In this document: in pieces, positions 12,249-51,168 of the stretch | Layout of the letters: each line of letters opens with the position of its first letter | Position numbering within the stretch: the stretch's first letter is position 1 | Origin: a virus | Virus record (IMG/VR): IMGVR_UViG_3300036861_000632 | Coordinates: 29,587 to 93,586 of that record | Direction: 5' to 3' (one strand) | Length of the DNA: 64,000 bases | Made by a program: the position numbers and the translations under genes | The notes under the pieces: generated by a model | Databases searched by the model: none | The model's input: the letters and a program-made list of their open reading frames with translations, nothing else | What the model was told of the DNA's origin: nothing

Positions 12249-14728
12249 GGCAACCAGATGGGTTCTTGTTCCACCGCCGCCGATGCCCCCAGCCGCACGA
12301 GAATCAGCTTGATCGCATCGTCCTCGATCTCTTGCAGGGCCGTGCCCACGCTGGGCGTGCCGTCCGCCGCGAGATAGCCGGTGCCATCCGGCCCGCGTCC
12401 AATCGGATCGTTCGCCTCAATCGGGCCTTGGACTTGGGCCAACGCTTCGCCGTGGTCAATCGTCGGAATCGTCGCATCGGACGGCTCCTGATGCCGCGTC
12501 GTGACGCCCGCGAAGATCGTGTGATCCGGCGTCGTGTTGGCCGGAAGCACGGGGCGGCTTTCGCGGTCAGTTTCTTCCTCCTCCGGCAGCTTGCGCTTTT
12601 TCCATAGTGGTACACCGACCAGCAACTTCGTATCCGCATCCCCATCCTTGAGCGTGACGTGCTTTGTCGGCGTCTGCGTCAGGCCGATGAACCCACGGAA
12701 GGCATTCGTCAGCGTCTTGCGCGCCTTCGAGTCCTGATTCAACGCCGCCGCCGTCAGCTTGTGAATGTTGGCCGTCGCGCGAAGTTGCTCCTGTCCGGGC
12801 AACAGCGTGTTCAACCGCGAGGTCCGGTCAAGATGTCGTTCCGGCACGTAGGTAGCACGCGGTTTCTCGGATGTGAACTGAACCGTCTCCTGCCCGCCAT
12901 CCGGGGACACTTGCACGACGATCCGGTCCATCTGCGTCGTCAACGCCGTGCCCGCCGGATAATTGCCGCTCTCATCCGGCGTCGGGTAGTTGACGTGCCG
13001 GCCACAGCGATACACGAACTGGCCGTTGAGCAGCGCGTTGGCGATGTCTTGGGCCTTCGCGCTGGCCAGATCACCGTCCGCATAGGGAATCTCCGCCGGG
13101 ATGAAGCCAACGGCCCCGGCGAACTCCGCGCACAACCCGGAGACATTCTCACAGCCATCGCGCGTGCCCACGCCCACGACGTAGCTGAATATTTCCGCCT
13201 CGAAGACGAGCGCCGCGCGCACATTGGGAATGCCAATCGTGGGTCGCGCCTTGAACACCGCGTAGCCATCAATGAGATCCACCAAATCCTCTGACCTGAT
13301 GATCGGCTCGGCAAACAGCAGGTAGCCCACCTCGCCATCGCCGCTGTCGTCGATTTGGAACTCGTGATGTTCCCACACGTCCTGAGTGTTCTTCCAGTCG
13401 GCGATCTTGAACCGTTCGGGCCGGATGGTGGCGAACAAATCCTTGCCCACCTGATAGCCCCGCACGATGGCGTAACCGTTCCCCGCGGGCGGGTCCGCGG
13501 GAAACCACGACATGAGGCCGGTGGACGGATCGTGAGTGACGGAGGCCACCATCCGGTCAGAGATCGACAGGGACTGTTGCGGGATCAGCCGGCCGTAGCC
13601 GTTGAGCAGGTTGTAATTGGACGGCACGCGGAAGGCGCGAAAGAGGATGGCGTTGATGTAGAGAGCGGCCGGCATGTCGAGCCGCGACTTGCCGGCGAAT
13701 CGCCGGTAGTCATCCCAAGTGTTGTGGTTGCCGCGCAATTCCGCGTATTCCCAGACGGTAATCTCCGCCGCCCGCGCCGCCGCAAGTTGCTGCGTAATGA
13801 GCCGGTCGGGATCGTCGTCATCGCTGACGGCCGTAAAGAGCGTGCCGGCGGCATAGTTCGTTGAACCGATCGTCATGCCAGAGGTCAACTTCCCGCGAGC
13901 ATAGATGTCATCCTGAAACACGTAGAAGTCATAGAAGGCTTCCCAAGCGCCGTTCCAATCCGGCACCAGATTGAGGTTGTGAACCTGGTAGCGGTTGCGT
14001 TCGCCCAGCACCCGGATGCGCGTCGGGTTGGTGGACATCGCCCCGCCATCCTCGCGATGGTCGCTCGTGGCCGGAAACGTGATCGCTGTGCCTTCGCCTT
14101 TACGGCCCCAAGTGAGATGGAAATAATCCGAGAGCGTGAACGTCAATCCCTGCTTGTCGCTCACTTCCTGCAAGGCTTGGCGCAAGGACGGCCCGCCGAG
14201 GAAGTCCAGATTGTAAACCGGCTGGTTTTGGTCGGCATGATAGGACGTGATCCAGAGGTCTTCGGTCGTCGGCGCCGAGAGCAGGAAGTTGATGATCTGC
14301 GAGGCGGTATAGGGGTCGGTCGTGAAGGTCTTGGTTAGCGTGTTGAAGTTGACCGGCAGGACGTGCCAGTAGCGGCGCGTCAGGACGCCATTAACCAGTT
14401 TGATTTCTTCCTTGTTGAACGCGCAGTAGGCACGGTCCCATTCGAGGTAGTCGCGCAGATCAACGAAGCTCAGGGTTTTGTCCTTGCCCTGCGAACTGTT
14501 CACATCCTTCACTTGCCGGCATGAACCCCAAAACGTGTGGCCGAGCAATTCGATCTTGAGGATGCTCGCTTCCGGCACGGCATCGCCCACATAGACGATC
14601 TCCGCCGTGCCCGGCTCGCTGCCCCACGCCTTCACGAACGTCGCCGACTGCGCGTAATAGACCGTGCTGACTCCGCCGCCGCCACGGTGGCCGAGGATGG
14701 GCAGGACGTTGATCTTGGCGCGGGGCAT
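12245..14728 (-). CDS. Tail hub- or tip-like protein
   Basis: An 827-residue protein. The segment at about residues 180-215 (LRQALQEVSDKQGLTFTL, then a Trp-Gly turn) resembles the hub domain of tail proteins related to phage late-control D or the siphophage distal-tail/Tal family, where a SerXGlnAlaLeuXXXAla-like helix precedes a LeuThrPhe strand. Later regions are beta-rich with a Pro/Asp-rich linker near residues 680-760. It is coupled to the 1484-residue gene, so the two probably assemble together at the tail end. The hub call is a resemblance by eye, not proven. Confidence 0.62.
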   Translation of the reverse strand: MPRAKINVLPILGHRGGGGVSTVYYAQSATFVKAWGSEPGTAEIVYVGDAVPEASILKIELLGHTFWGSCRQVKDVNSSQGKDKTLSFVDLRDYLEWDRAYCAFNKEEIKLVNGVLTRRYWHVLPVNFNTLTKTFTTDPYTASQIINFLLSAPTTEDLWITSYHADQNQPVYNLDFLGGPSLRQALQEVSDKQGLTFTLSDYFHLTWGRKGEGTAITFPATSDHREDGGAMSTNPTRIRVLGERNRYQVHNLNLVPDWNGAWEAFYDFYVFQDDIYARGKLTSGMTIGSTNYAAGTLFTAVSDDDDPDRLITQQLAAARAAEITVWEYAELRGNHNTWDDYRRFAGKSRLDMPAALYINAILFRAFRVPSNYNLLNGYGRLIPQQSLSISDRMVASVTHDPSTGLMSWFPADPPAGNGYAIVRGYQVGKDLFATIRPERFKIADWKNTQDVWEHHEFQIDDSGDGEVGYLLFAEPIIRSEDLVDLIDGYAVFKARPTIGIPNVRAALVFEAEIFSYVVGVGTRDGCENVSGLCAEFAGAVGFIPAEIPYADGDLASAKAQDIANALLNGQFVYRCGRHVNYPTPDESGNYPAGTALTTQMDRIVVQVSPDGGQETVQFTSEKPRATYVPERHLDRTSRLNTLLPGQEQLRATANIHKLTAAALNQDSKARKTLTNAFRGFIGLTQTPTKHVTLKDGDADTKLLVGVPLWKKRKLPEEEETDRESRPVLPANTTPDHTIFAGVTTRHQEPSDATIPTIDHGEALAQVQGPIEANDPIGRGPDGTGYLAADGTPSVGTALQEIEDDAIKLILVRLGASAAVEQEPIWLP

Positions 14729-14730
14729 GG

Positions 14731-15045
14731 TCAGGCCGTTTTAGGCAATCGCTGAACCCAGCCCGGATGGGCGTTGTGGCCACGGAACCGCGTGGCGATG
14801 AAGTTGTGCGAATTCCGAAAGTGATTCGGAGTATATGCGCCTTTCTTTTTTGCCTTCATCATTCTGGTCAGCTTGTTCGCGTATTCCGCCTTCGCCGCCT
14901 TCACCTTGAGAATCGCCTCGCGCCGGTTTGGCTCAGGTATCCTGCTGCAATCAATCACCACGCCGTAGTAATCCTCCAGCCGCCACGCCCACTTGCCAGT
15001 ACTAAGCTGGCGGACGATACCGCGAACTTCAGTTGGTTCACTCAT
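14731..15045 (-). CDS. Small basic protein of unknown function
   Basis: A 104-residue protein that is basic in its second half (RMMKAKKKGAY region) with several His and Trp near the C-terminus. It ends 2 bases before the tail hub-like gene starts. The 60 bases upstream of its ATG (15,046-15,105) hold no gene. No family recognised; nucleic-acid binding is plausible from the charge. Confidence 0.7.
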   Translation of the reverse strand: MSEPTEVRGIVRQLSTGKWAWRLEDYYGVVIDCSRIPEPNRREAILKVKAAKAEYANKLTRMMKAKKKGAYTPNHFRNSHNFIATRFRGHNAHPGWVQRLPKTA

Positions 15046-15702: not shown

Positions 15703-15999
15703 TCATTGGCAGGCCCGGTCACGCTTTGTGTATTTTCTAGGTTCTTCGTATTCGCTCGCATGAGTCCACGACCACCAGACCTTGCCGGTGCGGTCGGTAT
15801 ATTTGAGCAGCGCACACCGTCCGCGACGGTAGAGCTTTTCGATTTCTACCACCGTGCCGGATTTGATGACGACACCCGGCTTGAACAGGTCGTCATCCTC
15901 ATTGCCGCGCCGAAGATAAAACATCGAGTCTTTCTCGACCTGCCACCGCCCGATGCGCTTGGCGTCTCTCAGGTCTTGCATTGTTATCTTTGTTCTCAC
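15703..15999 (-). CDS. Small protein of unknown function
   Basis: The reading frame is long, but the preceding exonuclease gene ends at 15,996, so translation most likely starts at GTG 15,999 (GTGA overlap, 98 residues) or at ATG 15,981 (92 residues). The product has a beta-rich core with Trp repeats near the C-terminus (LysValTrpTrpSerTrpThrHis) and charged ends. It looks like a small single-domain protein; function unknown. Confidence 0.68.
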   Translation of the reverse strand: MRTKITMQDLRDAKRIGRWQVEKDSMFYLRRGNEDDDLFKPGVVIKSGTVVEIEKLYRRGRCALLKYTDRTGKVWWSWTHASEYEEPRKYTKRDRACQ

Positions 16000-17021
16000 A
16001 CTTTGATTTCCACCCTTTCCTCTTTTTCTTCCTCCGGCTCCGGCTCGTGAAACACAGCCATCTGATCCACGGTTCCAAGGATCATCCATGGTTCCGGCGC
16101 GCACAGTGTCCAGCCGTTGATGCCATTCGTGGAATCATCGTAGCCCGGCCAGCGGTCCTCCGCCAGACAGCGCGCGTACAGCTTGAGGGCGAGGCGATAG
16201 TTCGCGCGCCCGATCTGCACGTATTCATCCGTGGCCAGTTCCCGTCCCGGCTCGAAGGGCCGTTTGTTTTCCTGAATGGCCCATGCCCAGTCAATCCGGT
16301 TCTCGCCCGTCGCCTTGTTGTAAACGTCCAGATAGAGCGCCGCCTGCGTATGGTAGTGGTAATCGAACACGGAACGTTTCCAGCGCCGGGGATTGACGCT
16401 CTTGGCCGTCTTGTAATCCGCCAGCCGCCGCCCGAATTCGGGATGCTTCACGTCCGGCTTGAGGTCGATCAATGTCTTGATGGGGATGGTCAGCCCGGTG
16501 GCCTTGTCCACGTATTCCGCCGTGCAATAGACCTGACGCTCGGAACAGTCGATCAACTCTTTGATCTTCGCGTCGTTCAACAGTGCGGTGCGGGCGTCGA
16601 GCGCGTCCTTCTTGAGCTTCGTGTTGACGACCGTGCGCCCGGCTTCCTTCTGTTCGGCTTTCCACGCCTTGCAGACGTTCGCGTTGCCGGACCAGTCCTT
16701 GATCTCGCCTTTGTCGTTCCGGTACGTCAGCGGCGTCTCGACGAACTTCTTGACGAACTGTTCCGGGGTGATGATGAGGCAGTCGAGGCAGTTGCCAAAC
16801 ACCAGCGAGGGCGATTCCTTTTCGTCCTCGTCTTCCTCCACTTCACCAACCCGCCAGCGATGCGGGCATTCGAGGAAGTCCATCAACTCGCCGCGCGACA
16901 TGACGAACTCTTTGTCGCCGCGTCGGGCGGTCTGCTTGTGGTAAACCGCCGGGTCGAAGTTCGCGCCGACGACCTTGGCGGTGACGAACGGGCTGGGGAG
17001 TTCGGTGGGTGGGGCGCTCAC
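15996..17021 (-). CDS. PD-(D/E)XK exonuclease, RecE-like
   Basis: About 341 residues. The PD-(D/E)XK core is clear: an Asp in the LeuIleAspLeuLysProAsp strand (about residue 186), AspTyrLysThr (about 202-205) giving the catalytic Lys, and the GlnAlaAlaLeuTyrLeuAspValTyr helix that follows in phage exonucleases of the RecE/DUF3799 type. It would resect DNA 5' to 3' to give single strands for annealing. It sits next to the Sak4-like ATPase and a coiled-coil protein, so these form the recombination module. Start: GTG 17,021 overlaps the upstream stop (GTGA); ATG 17,048 is the alternative. Confidence 0.88.
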   Translation of the reverse strand: MSAPPTELPSPFVTAKVVGANFDPAVYHKQTARRGDKEFVMSRGELMDFLECPHRWRVGEVEEDEDEKESPSLVFGNCLDCLIITPEQFVKKFVETPLTYRNDKGEIKDWSGNANVCKAWKAEQKEAGRTVVNTKLKKDALDARTALLNDAKIKELIDCSERQVYCTAEYVDKATGLTIPIKTLIDLKPDVKHPEFGRRLADYKTAKSVNPRRWKRSVFDYHYHTQAALYLDVYNKATGENRIDWAWAIQENKRPFEPGRELATDEYVQIGRANYRLALKLYARCLAEDRWPGYDDSTNGINGWTLCAPEPWMILGTVDQMAVFHEPEPEEEKEERVEIKV

Positions 17022-21221: not shown

Positions 21222-22652
21222 TCAGATGTCACTAGGCACATCGTCGCTGGAGACTTTGGAGGCTGTCTCGAAGCGGGTGAAACTTTTGAGGAAGGTGAAA
21301 TGCAGGTCGCCACAGCAGCCATTTCTTTGCTTCGCTATCAGAAGGTTCACCTGCTCGGTGTCACTGTAAATGTCGCCTTCCTCTGCGTTTGGCCGGTACA
21401 GCAACCCTACCAAATCAGCATCCGCTTCAATCTGGCCAGATTGACGCAAATCGCTGAGTTTCGGCTTTGCGCCCGCCTCTCGTTTTTCGATCTCCCGGTT
21501 TAGCTGGCAGAGAACCACCACTGGAATATTGAGTTCCTTGGCGAGTCCCTTGATCCCGCGGGAGATGTCGGCGGTTTCCTGCTCCTTGTTCTCGGCACGC
21601 CGGTCTGTCGAGTGCAACAGTTGCAGGTAGTCAACGACGAGCAGCTTGATTCCGTGCTGCTGCTGCATTCTGCGGGCCTTGGCGCGAAGTTGCAGGATGG
21701 AAAGCCCGCTGGAGTCGTCGATGTAGATGGGTGATTCGCCGATCTTTCCGGCGGCGTTGGTGATCCGAGGAAAATCCCGCTCCGCGAGGAATCCTTCGCG
21801 CACGTTGCGCACGTTCACCCGGCCGCAGGAACAGATCATCCGCAGGACAAGTGAATCCGCGGTCATTTCGAGGCTGAAAATTCCGACGGGGAGCTTGAGT
21901 TCAAGGGCGACGTGCTCGGCGATATTCATTGCCATCGAAGTTTTTCCAAGACCGGGCCTCGCCGCTATCACAATCATGTCCCCCGGATGCAGTCCCGTCG
22001 TGATCTTGTCGAAATCGCTGAACCCGGTGGACAACCCCGTGACGGCGCCTTGGTTCTGGTGATACTTCTCAATCGTATCGACGGCCTTGTGGACGAGTAG
22101 TTTGATGGGCAGGGTGCCGGTGCCGCGATCGCGCTCCTGACTCAGCTTGAGCACATCGGTTTCAAATTCGTCCAGCACTTCGTCCGTCTCGCCCTGATAC
22201 TCGTAAGCCCGGCCCACGAACTCCGTGCATACGCGGATGGATTTTCGCAGGACGTACTTGTCCCATACGATGTCGAGATAGTATTCAATGGATGATGCCG
22301 ACGGCACGGCGTCGGGCAGGGCGGCGAGATACGAGAGGCCGCCGACGGATTCGAGTTGGTTCTTGTCCTTGAGGCGCTGCGAGAGGGTGACGAGATCAAT
22401 GGTGATCCGGGCGTCGAACATGGCGACCAGTTCATCGAAAACGGTTTGGTGTCGAAGGTCGTATAGCTGGTCGCTGTTCTTGATACGCTCGATGGCGATG
22501 GGCAGGGAGACGGCGGGGTCGAGCAAGAGGCAGCCGATCACGGCTTGTTCCGCCTCGGTTGACGATGGGGGAAGTCTTTCAAGGCGCGAGAGATCAATCG
22601 GATGATCCCCGCGTCGGCGCGAGGCTCTAAGGTCTGTGGGTTCGTCGCTCAT
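21222..22652 (-). CDS. dnaB: DnaB-type replicative helicase
   Basis: About 476 residues, the length of bacterial DnaB, the hexameric 5'-3' helicase that opens the fork. The N-terminal domain (SerThrGluAlaGluGlnAlaValIleGly region, about residues 30-45) is typical. The RecA-like domain has AlaArgProGlyLeuGlyLysThr (about 232-239, Walker A) and LeuLeuValValAspTyrLeuGlnLeu (about 340-348, Walker B). A conserved LysGlnArgAsnGly arginine-finger segment is near the end. I start at ATG 22,652 because it overlaps the upstream stop (ATGA). No intein is inserted. It probably works with the initiator-like protein encoded just upstream. Confidence 0.95.
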   Translation of the reverse strand: MSDEPTDLRASRRRGDHPIDLSRLERLPPSSTEAEQAVIGCLLLDPAVSLPIAIERIKNSDQLYDLRHQTVFDELVAMFDARITIDLVTLSQRLKDKNQLESVGGLSYLAALPDAVPSASSIEYYLDIVWDKYVLRKSIRVCTEFVGRAYEYQGETDEVLDEFETDVLKLSQERDRGTGTLPIKLLVHKAVDTIEKYHQNQGAVTGLSTGFSDFDKITTGLHPGDMIVIAARPGLGKTSMAMNIAEHVALELKLPVGIFSLEMTADSLVLRMICSCGRVNVRNVREGFLAERDFPRITNAAGKIGESPIYIDDSSGLSILQLRAKARRMQQQHGIKLLVVDYLQLLHSTDRRAENKEQETADISRGIKGLAKELNIPVVVLCQLNREIEKREAGAKPKLSDLRQSGQIEADADLVGLLYRPNAEEGDIYSDTEQVNLLIAKQRNGCCGDLHFTFLKSFTRFETASKVSSDDVPSDI

Positions 22653-22906
22653 TGCTCTTTCCAATTCCTGATGGACAGGAGCCGCCCGGCACCGTCCATC
22701 GTGACCACCTTGGTCAAGCGCAGGGGTACATGCTGAAACGTCGGCAGGTTTTTGTTTCGTGGTCGTGGCACGTCGAAGGAGAACGTGACGTACCAGCGCC
22801 GCCGGGCGGTGTAAATTTCTTCCAAGAGCAGGCGGACGCCGGGGAATACATGCCGGCAGTGATGGCGGGCGAGACGAATGAACTTTTTGGATTCAGGGAT
22901 GGTCAT
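22649..22906 (-). CDS. Small beta-rich protein of unknown function
   Basis: An 85-residue protein from ATG 22,906 (ATGA overlap with the preceding stop). The middle has alternating aromatic and basic residues (ArgArgTrpTyrValThrPheSer) as in small beta-barrel folds. It sits between the DnaB gene and a 301-residue gene of unknown role. Single-stranded DNA binding is a possibility, without direct motif support. Confidence 0.65.
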   Translation of the reverse strand: MTIPESKKFIRLARHHCRHVFPGVRLLLEEIYTARRRWYVTFSFDVPRPRNKNLPTFQHVPLRLTKVVTMDGAGRLLSIRNWKEQ

Positions 22907-27177: not shown

Positions 27178-27447
27178 TTATGCAGGATGCGTTGCCTCGT
27201 GAAAACTCATCGCTGGAAAATGCGGGGGCAGTCCGCCGATGAAGGACAGGAAGATTGGCTGGCCGGCGGCGATCTGAAGTATCTCCTGCGGGGATGGCTG
27301 CCACGCGACCACGACGATCTCTTTGCCGTCAACACAACCGCCGCGCACTTGTCCGACATAGGCATGGAGCCTTGAGCACTGCGATTCATCGAGGTCGGCC
27401 GGCGGGCCGAAGACGGTGTTGGATTCGGGAAATTCGGCGGGGTGCAT
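27178..27447 (-). CDS. Small phage protein of a common unknown family
   Basis: An 89-residue protein from ATG 27,447, in a TGATG overlap with the HerA-like gene stop. AsnThrValPheGlyProProAlaAspLeuAspGluSerGlnCys and IleGlyGlyLeuProProHisPhe are familiar from phage proteins of unknown role. It follows the ATPase gene directly, so it may act with it, but no evidence beyond position supports this. Confidence 0.75.
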   Translation of the reverse strand: MHPAEFPESNTVFGPPADLDESQCSRLHAYVGQVRGGCVDGKEIVVVAWQPSPQEILQIAAGQPIFLSFIGGLPPHFPAMSFHEATHPA

Positions 27448-29234
27448 CAGAATTGGAACAGCCATTCCGCCGCGCGAACGTGGTCCGGCTGCGGATACGT
27501 GATGAGTTCCTTCGAGCGCAGTGCGCCGCGGGGGTTCGTGTAGCCGGTGGACGAATGGCTGTAGCCGGCCAGTGTCGCCGCTTCTTCGTTGGTCATCGTG
27601 TTGGGATGTCCGCTGGCAATGGCGGCAAGAATCCTCCGCTCCGGGCCGCCAAGCTGGCTCAGGACGAAATCAAGGAGCGAACCGTTGAGTTGGAGCGCCG
27701 TGTAATTGCCAAGTCCTTCCTCGGTCAATTGAACCATGTCGGGTTGCGGGTAGTTCACCAAGCCGAGCGACTTGAGGGCACCGCGCGGGTTGGTGTACCC
27801 CGTCGAGGTTGGGCTGTAGCCCGCCAGCCATGCGACCTGACAGTTCGATGGCGCCGGATGCCCCATCGCGCCCCAGGTGGCGAGTGAATTGAGGATGCGT
27901 TGGCCGGGGCCGGTTATCTCCAAGCCTGTTCCATTGTTACCCTCACGCGGGGGAGCCGGCGGCGCGTCGGCCAAGGGCCGCTCTGCACGCACGGTCCCGG
28001 CTCCCCTGATTGCTGGCGTGTATTTGTTCGCCGCAAGATTCGGAAGCTTGGAGAATTTTCCTTCCAACACGGATTTGATCGCAGTCACTTCCGGTTTCAA
28101 CTCGTTCGTGATGCGCGAAAGCGTTTCAAGCTTGGAATAGTGGCCTTCCGCAGCGGCGTAAAGATTCTCAAAAGCAGCAACCAGCTTGGTCAGCCGCTTG
28201 CGCTCGGAAGCCGTGAGCACGGGTTCTTTTACGGTCAGTGTCTTCGTCACCACCTTCTCGCCGCCGGCCGCCTTCTCCAGCTTTGACTTTTCGTGCTTGA
28301 GCCGCGCGATCTCCGCCTTCAACTCGCGCGGGTCGTTCGCCTTCGCTTCTTCAATGACCGTGGCCAGCTTTTTACGCACCTCATCGAGATCGACCGCAGA
28401 CCAACCACTGTCGCTGACTTTGCGCTGAAGTTGTGGCGGAGCGAACGAATCGAACGTGGTGAACATCGGAAAAATCAACCGCTTCGGCCCGAATCCGATT
28501 TCCGGGGACCAGACGTAAGCCTCGCCACGCGCCATGCCCGCAAGCGAATTCAAGACTTCTTTGCCCTTGCTGATGTCGCCGCACCCCTCGATCCAGTCCT
28601 GAACGGCATCACGATCCGCCTTGTGGATCACGCGCATCGCCACAAGTGTTTCACATTGCGTCAAGACATCATTGTGAAGTTTCTGCGGGCGTTGTGTTGC
28701 CAGCAAACAGATCAACCCAAGCCCGCGCCCCTCGCCAAGCAGGGTGTTCGACCAATGCAGGCACATGCCAGCTTCCGGGCTTAGAATTTTCCCCTTGGGC
28801 GCGAAATTGTGAAACTCGTCTCCGACAAGATACAATTCGCCGAGCGTTTTGGCGGCGTAAATCCCCTGTGCAAAATCAATCCAGAACCGCGTGCGGTTGC
28901 CGACCGTCCAGCCACGGAAACCGATTATGCAGGGCCGGTTGCCGGTCACGATCAGTTCCGCAACGAGCTTGCCGGATTGCGCGTTGATGGGAATGTCCGT
29001 CGCCTTTGATTCCTTGAAGTCACCAAAGGCAATCACGTCGAACCCGACCGATTTGCCATCAGCGGATTTTTTCAAACCCCACCAGTCGCCCTTGGGATCT
29101 ATGATGCAGACGCGCTTCTTATGGCTCAACAGGTGTTCGACGATGTGGCGCAACGCGGAGGATTTCCCGGCGCCGGTTTTCCCAAGCACGGCGACGTGCT
29201 GCTTTAGGGTTTCTTCGGGGATGCAGAGGGGCAT
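27447..29234 (-). CDS. HerA-like ATPase with tandem winged-helix domains
   Basis: A 595-residue protein. The HerA/FtsK-type ATPase domain occupies about residues 1-300: Walker A GKTGAGKS at 18-25 and Walker B ending in GlyAspGluPheHis at about 137-141, with conserved LeuAlaThrGlnArgProGlnLys sensor residues. A coiled-coil linker follows (about 285-330). The C-terminus contains two near-identical winged-helix modules, about residues 445-505 and 530-590, both with LeuAlaGlyTyrSer followed by SerThrGlyTyrThrAsnProArgGlyAla. They would bind DNA as a pair. HerA-like proteins pump or thread DNA; this one could serve DNA processing, resolution or defence. Its neighbours are a Pro/Ala-tailed protein and a PolX-like enzyme. 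Confidence 0.88.
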   Translation of the reverse strand: MPLCIPEETLKQHVAVLGKTGAGKSSALRHIVEHLLSHKKRVCIIDPKGDWWGLKKSADGKSVGFDVIAFGDFKESKATDIPINAQSGKLVAELIVTGNRPCIIGFRGWTVGNRTRFWIDFAQGIYAAKTLGELYLVGDEFHNFAPKGKILSPEAGMCLHWSNTLLGEGRGLGLICLLATQRPQKLHNDVLTQCETLVAMRVIHKADRDAVQDWIEGCGDISKGKEVLNSLAGMARGEAYVWSPEIGFGPKRLIFPMFTTFDSFAPPQLQRKVSDSGWSAVDLDEVRKKLATVIEEAKANDPRELKAEIARLKHEKSKLEKAAGGEKVVTKTLTVKEPVLTASERKRLTKLVAAFENLYAAAEGHYSKLETLSRITNELKPEVTAIKSVLEGKFSKLPNLAANKYTPAIRGAGTVRAERPLADAPPAPPREGNNGTGLEITGPGQRILNSLATWGAMGHPAPSNCQVAWLAGYSPTSTGYTNPRGALKSLGLVNYPQPDMVQLTEEGLGNYTALQLNGSLLDFVLSQLGGPERRILAAIASGHPNTMTNEEAATLAGYSHSSTGYTNPRGALRSKELITYPQPDHVRAAEWLFQF

Positions 29235-34213: not shown

Positions 34214-34800
34214 CTTTTATTTTTGCAATGGCGAGAAGAGCCGCCGCCTGGATCGGGCCTCCGACCTCCAGCGCGCGTCCGGTTCCATTGAGGAACTGCG
34301 CGAAGAGACGCAGGTTAATATTTCCTCTCCGATTTCGGGTCTGGTTAAACCGCGCCCATCTTAACCAGATCAGAAAACCGGGGGTGTTCTTTAACCGACG
34401 GCGCCGGCCACCCATCCCCGCGGCGATTGCCAGGGCCGGAAGCCGAATCAGCCGGATAGACCGAACCGGACCCGCCGCGCTGTCTCACTTATGAGAACGC
34501 CACGCGACGGTCGAAAGAAATATTTCTCGCAGGCCAATTCTGCCACCCAATAGAGTCAACCACGAGCCGGGTTGAGACTGTCTGTACGCCTTGTCCGTGT
34601 CTCGATTGCCTTGAGCTTGCAAGCCGTCTCGTGCATGGCTTACACACGCCTAGCCTCCTTGCCAGTTTACGGTCGAAACGCTTGAACCCGCCTTACCGCT
34701 TGATTGACTCGTATAAGCCAATTCAAGGATCGCCGAGAGCGACTTGACCCCAAAATCCGTCATTCTGCAATTCTGTATTACGGGCCATTTGACCCTATCG

Positions 34801-35101
34801 AGGGGCTATCGACACCCTTCCGATCTGGTCCAAAACCCGAAAACCCAAAAACGCGCCAGTTGCCCCAGGAGCGATTTTGATTGCCAAGACCTACCTCGAC
34901 CTACCCCCCTCCCCGTTCAAAACGCCGCCAGCGCCCGGCTGGCGCGTAGCAATGCCCTGGAAAAAACCAGATCCCACTCCAGAAAACCCCAACTTCAAAA
35001 TCGACCTCTCCCTCTCCCTCCCCCCCACACCCCCCCTACTCTTACCCTCTCTGACTCAGGTACTGTTTCTGTTTCTGTACCAAAGGGTGTCGATAGCCCC
35101 T
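34801..35101. repeat. 19-bp perfect inverted repeat with a 263-bp spacer
   Basis: Left arm AGGGGCTATCGACACCCTT at 34,801-34,819; right arm is its exact reverse complement at 35,083-35,101. The bases outside and inside the arms do not match, so the boundary is sharp. The spacer holds a strongly C/T-rich tract. Its size and arms resemble an invertible segment or a small mobile element without a gene. Confidence 0.75.
35004..35052. other. Polypyrimidine tract
   Basis: A run of almost only C and T on the plus strand, with C blocks of up to 7. On the minus strand this is a GGG/AGG-rich purine tract that could form a triplex or G-quadruplex. It lies inside the segment flanked by the 19-bp inverted repeat. 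Confidence 0.6.
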
Positions 35102-35123
35102 CCCGGCAAAATGGGAAACTGTA

Positions 35124-35215
35124 GCTCTTGTACAACAAAAAGACATAGAAATAAATATAAATACTTCTGTTTGAAGAAGTAATAGAGGAAATAAAGAAAA
35201 AAGAGCAGAACGGGA
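35124..35215. other. AT-rich tract
   Basis: A stretch of mostly A and T in a GC-rich genome, containing a 7-bp-arm dyad (TACTTCT / AGAAGTA at 35,162-35,181). It follows the 19-bp inverted repeat. Such a tract could be an unwinding element of an origin or a promoter region. Confidence 0.5.
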
Positions 35216-35303: not shown

Positions 35304-35545
35304 CATGATAATTCGGTCGTCGGTCGGCTCTGTGGCGACCAAAGCAGGCGGTCAAGCCGGGCGACCAAAGGCGGGTAAAGGCGGGTAAAGGGCACGGATC
35401 GGGAGAGGATCAATTTTGGCTTAAGCATTGACTATGCCAGTCGACGAAAGAAACATGGGTTGGATTTGATTCTACCCCTTCCACCTAACATTCAATTCGA
35501 CCGTTCCGCGTGATACCTGTCACACCTTGAGTCATTCTGACACAC

Positions 35546-35574: not shown

Positions 35575-35580
35575 CTTGGC

Positions 35581-35594
35581 GTTCCATGTGGAAC
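35581..35594. promoter_or_regulatory. Short palindrome resembling a parS site
   Basis: GTTCCATGTGGAAC has 6-bp arms around a central TG and resembles bacterial parS (GTTCCACGTGGAAC) with one change in the centre. No ParB gene is in the window, so a role in partition is only a guess. Confidence 0.4.
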
Positions 35595-35603
35595 AATGGG
35601 TAG

Positions 35604-35647
35604 GTAGGACACTGAATGTCCTACTGGTCGGACATTGGATGTCCTAC
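35604..35647. promoter_or_regulatory. Two tandem operator-like dyads
   Basis: The first, GTAGGACA-CTGAA-TGTCCTAC at 35,604-35,624, is perfect. The second, GTCGGACA-TTGGA-TGTCCTAC at 35,627-35,647, has one mismatch. Their centres are 23 bases apart, about two helical turns. Same half-site, same spacing and same 5-base spacer suggest binding by one dimeric regulator. Confidence 0.6.
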
Positions 35648-35882
35648 CGTGATAGCCTCGCCTAACAATTTTCGCTTCGCCTTTGAGACTGAATCTCAGT
35701 GGGGTATCGGCTTGAGGTTTCGCGCGATCCATGCGAGAAGTAACGCAGAACTGAGCGAGCCGGGCGGGCCTGCGGCGTCCGAATCCTCCAAGCGCGTAGC
35801 CCCGCCCGGATTCGCTCTTCTGCGTCCGGTCGAATTGTCAAAAACCCCAATAAAAGTGGGTCAAAATAAGTGAAGATTTCTC

Positions 35883-50790: not shown

Positions 50791-51168
50791 ATGGACCTGA
50801 TCTTATTCCCCACCAGCCCCAACGAATTCAAAGCGATCTTTCCAGACAACGCGGCGTGCGCGAAATATCTGGAGTCGCTTCGTTGGCCCAAAGGATTCAC
50901 CTGTCCGAACTGCGGGCTGCATGGCGAGCCATACCGCTTCAAAACCAGATCATCCGTGGTCCTGCGCTGCCGGCGTTGCCAAGTGAGCACGTCGTTGACG
51001 GCGGGAACGGTAATGCGATCAAGCCGTGTACCGCTAATCGTTTGGTTCCGCGCGGCCTATCTCACGACGACCAACCCCAATCAACCCATCGTTCAATTCC
51101 AGCGGCAGCTTCGACTGAAGCACTACCAGACGGCGCATCGGATGGCCAAGCTTCTGAGGGCGCGCTAA
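50791..51168 (+). CDS. Orphan IS1595-type transposase zinc ribbon
   Basis: A 125-residue protein matching the N-terminal zinc-ribbon domain of IS1595-family transposases. LeuArgTrpProLysGlyPheThrCysProAsnCysGly gives Cys38/Cys41 and ArgCysArgArgCysGln gives Cys60/Cys63; SerLeuThrAlaGlyThrValMetArgSerSerArgValProLeu follows. The helical segment ends where the DDE catalytic domain would begin. No inverted repeats or target duplication were seen. A recruited DNA-binding module seems more likely than a live element. Confidence 0.78.
   Translation: MDLILFPTSPNEFKAIFPDNAACAKYLESLRWPKGFTCPNCGLHGEPYRFKTRSSVVLRCRRCQVSTSLTAGTVMRSSRVPLIVWFRAAYLTTTNPNQPIVQFQRQLRLKHYQTAHRMAKLLRAR

Follow-up and report, generated by a model that had tools for sequence, protein, structure and literature searches.

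A perfect inverted repeat in the largest gene-free gap

A pair of perfect inverted arms lies within the largest gene-free gap of a tailed-phage record, and we tentatively favour the interpretation that this repeat acts in cis as a built-in element of the main non-coding control region of the phage, which would most plausibly be a replication origin and/or an early-control region. The window, that is, the whole 64,000-nt stretch of DNA analysed here, corresponds to bases 29,587–93,586 of the 93,586-base virus record, and the features of the gap are collected in Table 1. The inverted repeat itself is real and beyond chance: perfect pairs of at least 20 nt within 600 nt are expected at ~6e-5 per 64 kb, the longest inverted pair in first-order Markov sequences (n = 30) was 17 nt compared with the 20 nt observed, and the arms constitute the sole perfect pair of at least 15 nt with a spacer of ~20–600 nt in the window. 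The pair is nevertheless significant rather than extraordinary, since 3 of 57 other virus loci (L011, L012 and L054) contain a perfect pair of at least 20 nt in the same scan. No other match to the arm is present in the window at up to five mismatches, or in the whole record over 18 bases at up to two mismatches, leaving a single-copy pair.

The first-pass annotation had described a perfect 19-bp repeat with sharp edges. The arms are indeed exact reverse complements, but of 20 rather than 19 nt, and the sharpness holds for the outer edges, where the flanks lack inverted similarity (p 0.25 and 0.76), and less so for the inner edge, where a 6-nt indel is followed by similarity at 13 of 17 nt (p 0.043, uncorrected). 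Its description of the spacer, a nearly pure C/T run that is G-rich on the other strand and no gene inside, stands in both respects. The tract scores 32, higher than any other pyrimidine segment in the window (best of 40 Markov sequences, 23), and its complement carries a canonical G-quadruplex motif; open frames are present, but codon-usage scoring gives no coding frame throughout the gap.

Table 1. Features of the gene-free gap and its inverted repeat (window coordinates)
Feature	Position	Strand	Basis
Gap of 2,085 bp without a coding frame, the largest in the record, separating a leftward operon from a rightward one	33874–35958		Codon-usage gene calling
Left arm, GAGGGGCTATCGACACCCTT	34800–34819	+	Exact-repeat search
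Spacer between arms, 263 nt, without coding signal	34820–35082		Codon-usage scoring
Left arm, weak inward continuation	34826–34842	+	13/17 with 35066–35082 past 6-nt indel
Polypyrimidine tract, strongest and longest in the window	35005–35052	+	Segment scoring
G-quadruplex motif, only canonical one in the window	35010–35036	-	Motif scan
Right arm, weak inward continuation	35066–35082	-	Partner of 34826–34842
Right arm, exact reverse complement of left arm GAGGGGCTATCGACACCCTT	35083–35102	-	Exact-repeat search
Most AT-rich 100 bp of the 93.6-kb record, 72% AT versus 62% for the runner-up; may be a promoter area or an unwinding element	35110–35209		Composition scan
10-bp repeat AAAGGCGGGT, 2.5 copies, iteron-like	35367–35391	+	Repeat search
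parS-like palindrome	35580–35595	-	Resemblance to parS consensus
Two tandem 21-bp dyads (GTAGGACA-n5-TGTCCTAC and a variant), operator-like	35603–35648		Repeat/dyad search

The gap was ranked by codon-usage gene calling over the record, in which the second largest gap measures 1,303 bp. Part of a 545-aa reading frame, which scored poorly for codon usage and also belonged to the training set, probably falls within the latter; the codon-usage scoring is therefore rough.

Gene content and relatives of the phage

Tail proteins, among the best 25 of 33 families in one search, identify the virus as a tailed phage. The leftward genes encode a HerA/FtsK-like ATPase, a MazG-like protein, a DnaB-like helicase (21222–22664) and an exonuclease. 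At the DNA level, no similarity to phages or plasmids was found, with chance-level pieces only at E-values up to 10, and the 545-aa protein, the MazG-like protein and a 1,300-aa helicase have no relatives in IMG/VR. The exonuclease matches two IMG/VR loci at 47% identity, and the DnaB-like helicase is at best 41% identical to proteins of named phages and 52–53% identical to that of IMG/VR contig L015. The latter contig is the only one among the 57 IMG/VR loci with a HerA-like ATPase that also has the exonuclease and DnaB, and it contains no gap that can be compared with the one described here. Of 30 records searched, three carry the exonuclease and four a DnaB match; eight HerA-bearing records, taken in pieces, each have one to three proteins in common with the phage and no comparable pair. 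A homologous gap is present in none of the contigs compared.

The HerA/FtsK-like ATPase itself (27447–29234, minus strand) shows a partial terminase-family match, and its 57 relatives reside in virus contigs that are otherwise largely unrelated. Separately, the phage has carbohydrate-related genes (L004, 16–1317 and 3646–5312), comprising a GH130-like phosphorylase, an FkbM methyltransferase and a family 25 glycosyltransferase. A retron was also considered and rejected, as the search returned no reverse transcriptase domain.

The setting of the repeat points to a possible built-in control region

We favour a built-in control region because unusual sequence features crowd into one large gene-free gap. 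The position of this gap at the junction of divergent operons, together with its size, counts in favour of this interpretation, as does the AT maximum of the record, which falls beside the right arm in windows of 60, 100, 200 and 500 bp alike and, at 100 bp, starts eight bases to the right of it. The strongest pyrimidine tract with the only G-quadruplex motif of the window and the further repeats and dyads within the gap point in the same direction, the tandem dyads being situated ~310 bp ahead of the first rightward gene. A single copy and a missing target duplication are more easily reconciled with a fixed than with a mobile site, and the absence of inversion enzymes of the families searched likewise counts for a fixed control site.

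Phage and plasmid origins, as a general class, combine AT-rich unwinding DNA with repeats. The gap resembles them in being non-coding and in combining an AT-rich stretch with dyads and short direct repeats that lie near one another, and the phage encodes its own DnaB-like helicase, which counts for an origin. An earlier suggestion that the segment may be part of an origin gives the best fit to the setting (gap, AT maximum, tract and G-quadruplex motif), and a candidate AT-rich unwinding element is present as a sequence property only. Several observations argue against an origin: the GC skew has no turning point at the arms, neither of the two DnaA-box patterns tried gave a match, domain searches recognised no initiator gene among the phage proteins, and the iteron-like array amounts to only 2.5 copies of a 10-mer. 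The gap differs from phage and plasmid origins in lacking a recognised initiator, a strong iteron array and a skew signal, and an inverted 20-mer pair 263 nt apart is no standard origin part. The AT-rich DNA between the divergent operons might serve only as promoter DNA, yet a promoter scan gave one site compared with 1.1 expected by chance, that is, no excess.

If the repeat belongs to such a control region, a phage or host protein would bind both arms and bridge them across 283 bp, the AT-rich DNA adjoining the right arm would melt, and either the DnaB-like helicase of the phage would be loaded at the melted DNA or, alternatively, transcription of both operons would be set, with the spacer held in a fixed orientation and no inversion involved. 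The arm centres are 283 bp apart, equivalent to ~27.0 helical turns at 10.5 bp; this spacing is a weak argument, as we estimate that it would arise by luck about once in five. The palindrome resembles the parS consensus, but a partition site at this position was rejected since domain searches found no ParB domain in the record.

A possible decayed mobile element as a close second

It is also possible, and a close second to the control-region interpretation, that a decayed non-autonomous, MITE-like element of ~300 bp was inserted into the gap, with the arms representing its terminal inverted repeats, mobilised in the distant past by a transposase provided in trans. The sharp outer edges combined with the weak inward continuation of the arms correspond to the anatomy of transposon ends, and the segment of ~300 bp contains no gene. 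Prokaryotic MITEs are typically <500 bp with terminal inverted repeats of ~4–30 bp, are often found in AT-rich intergenic DNA and lose their flanking repeats over time, according to a 2024 review (PMC10969869), and a study of TIMEs describes these elements as usually single copy, with flanking repeats in 4 of 18, those derived from Tn3 having 38-bp inverted repeats conserved at both ends and a 5- or 6-bp duplication (PMC4133298). Like these elements, the segment described here is short, gene-less, intergenic and bounded by sharp terminal inverted repeats around <500 bp of non-coding DNA, and its single copy is usual for TIMEs.

The first-pass annotation had raised a non-autonomous mobile element, with which the edges and size agree, whereas a target duplication, extra copies and a relative were not found. 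Two checks that it proposed came out negative. First, no target duplication of 4–12 bp, with one mismatch allowed, flanks the arms at 25 boundary offsets, although such a duplication may be lost in old copies. Second, the arms were not found in other viruses: IMG/VR contains no exact 18-nt arm, and neither IMG/VR nor 84,980 species genomes contain the two-arm pattern (11 nt per arm, spacer 258–288). The same genomes gave two exact 18-nt arm matches, compared with ~7 that we estimate by chance, and both are lone sites without a partner at up to five mismatches within their 8-kb loci. No autonomous element or other copy with the same arms thus emerged from the record, IMG/VR or the genomes, the arm searches being exact-match searches of limited reach that could miss a diverged family. 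In addition, the pair is single copy in the record, and the repeat segment is 57% GC and thus not AT-rich, which distinguishes it from prokaryotic MITEs. Compared with Tn3-derived TIMEs, which have 38-bp arms, the perfect similarity here extends over 20 bp and drops to weak similarity beyond (38-nt ends compared by eye), and the 5- or 6-bp duplication is likewise missing.

The arms also fail a model of IS1595 ends, built over 18 positions from 28 end sequences of plasmid and virus loci. Real ends, when left out, score 9.5 to 25.3, with the reservation that for virus-contig ends the partner end remained in the model, whereas the arm scores -5.4, a value equalled or exceeded at 1,540 places of the window. 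In the model, the row for L080 carries an incorrect final letter, which affects 1 of 28 rows at 1 of 18 positions. Omitted from the model were the ends of L091 and L097, which are without the TATC core, L078 as a duplicate of L077, and L092 and L090 as repeats of L085 and L084; no IS1595 end was found in L093, L099, L075 and L081. Although the letters CTATC are common to the arms and some ends of IS1595-family elements (ISAcr1, ISCsp2), we rejected the arms as IS1595 ends on the basis of this score and the missing 8-bp duplication. A similarity between the arm and the L076 end (p 0.002 before correction for 20 comparisons, with a 5-nt gap needed) was not upheld.

RNA folding, inversion and artefact

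A structured RNA, in which the arms would pair as the stem of a long hairpin within a small RNA or leader transcribed through the segment, is unlikely and, in our assessment, weakly supported. As plus-strand RNA, the whole region has a better fold than every one of 100 shuffles (z -3.89), but a strong fold is expected here because the arms provide 20 paired bases, and the signal comes mostly from them: the z-score is -2.30 for the minus strand of the whole region, and the spacer alone gives -1.73 on the plus and +0.19 on the minus strand. Moreover, there is no Rfam match at the gathering score in the window, nor at E-values up to 1 in the gap.

Inversion of the spacer by a recombinase working at the arms, the invertible regulatory switch of the first-pass annotation, appears very improbable. 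Such a switch would be in keeping with the perfect inverted arms, the short segment and the divergent operons on either side, but no cognate invertase was found in the record, where domain searches gave neither a serine resolvase/invertase (PF00239) nor a Piv/IS110 protein (PF01548), and no promoter-like site is reported within the segment; an enzyme of the host might act instead. The tyrosine-integrase model has its sole match at 13,602–13,781 of the record, ~50 kb from the arms, where a broken C-terminal relic with an internal stop is found. This relic (13602–13781, L003) sits among rightward genes.

We consider it equally doubtful that one arm arose as an artefact of assembly or of the library: the ten bases CTTCCGATCT, identical to the terminal bases of a common Illumina adapter, are located at 34817–34826 and nowhere else in the window, but they occur only at the left arm and are missing from the right arm, and the letters preceding them differ from the adapter.

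A stand-alone transposase DNA-binding protein

Among 51 phage proteins scanned against Pfam, one has an IS1595 zinc-ribbon domain (50791–51168, plus strand); it is a zinc-ribbon/HTH protein of 125 aa that matches the ISAcr1 transposase over its N-terminal part at 56% identity. This corresponds to the DNA-binding half of an ISAcr1-like transposase without the catalytic half, and no IS1595 catalytic domain is present anywhere in the record. Its frame begins one base past the end of the preceding frame. A link between this protein and the arms is speculation, and in a very improbable scenario the phage would have co-opted the end-binding half of a transposase as an initiator or repressor, with the arms, as a pair of transposon-like ends, serving as the two sites that it binds. 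Were this so, a co-opted transposon end-pairing step would now control phage replication or early transcription, but since the arms do not fit IS1595 ends, the binding would have to have drifted far or to belong to another protein.

A narrow literature search found, among the titles listed, no report of stand-alone IS1595 domains in phages, which does not prove their absence. Elsewhere, virus contig L032 contains a 477-bp element (15757–16233) with IS1595-type ends and a perfect 8-bp target duplication, ATGTATAT; it is transposase-less and has one open frame of ~125 aa, a small cargo frame, and a separate IS1595-type transposase-like frame of ~315 codons (14053–15000) lies 0.8 kb away. A second pair of IS1595-type ends encloses a transposase-less segment in virus contig L116 (1034–1608), where no target duplication is found.

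Implications

Inverted repeats are by themselves ordinary in phage control regions, and the importance of the present one is modest; the stand-alone transposase DNA-binding protein and the transposase-less IS1595-type cargo elements may merit more attention than the repeat. Within the favoured control-region interpretation, the repeat indicates where control is probably centred in a phage lineage that has few proteins in common with described phages, and the gap that contains it provides a small target for locating the origin and the early promoters.
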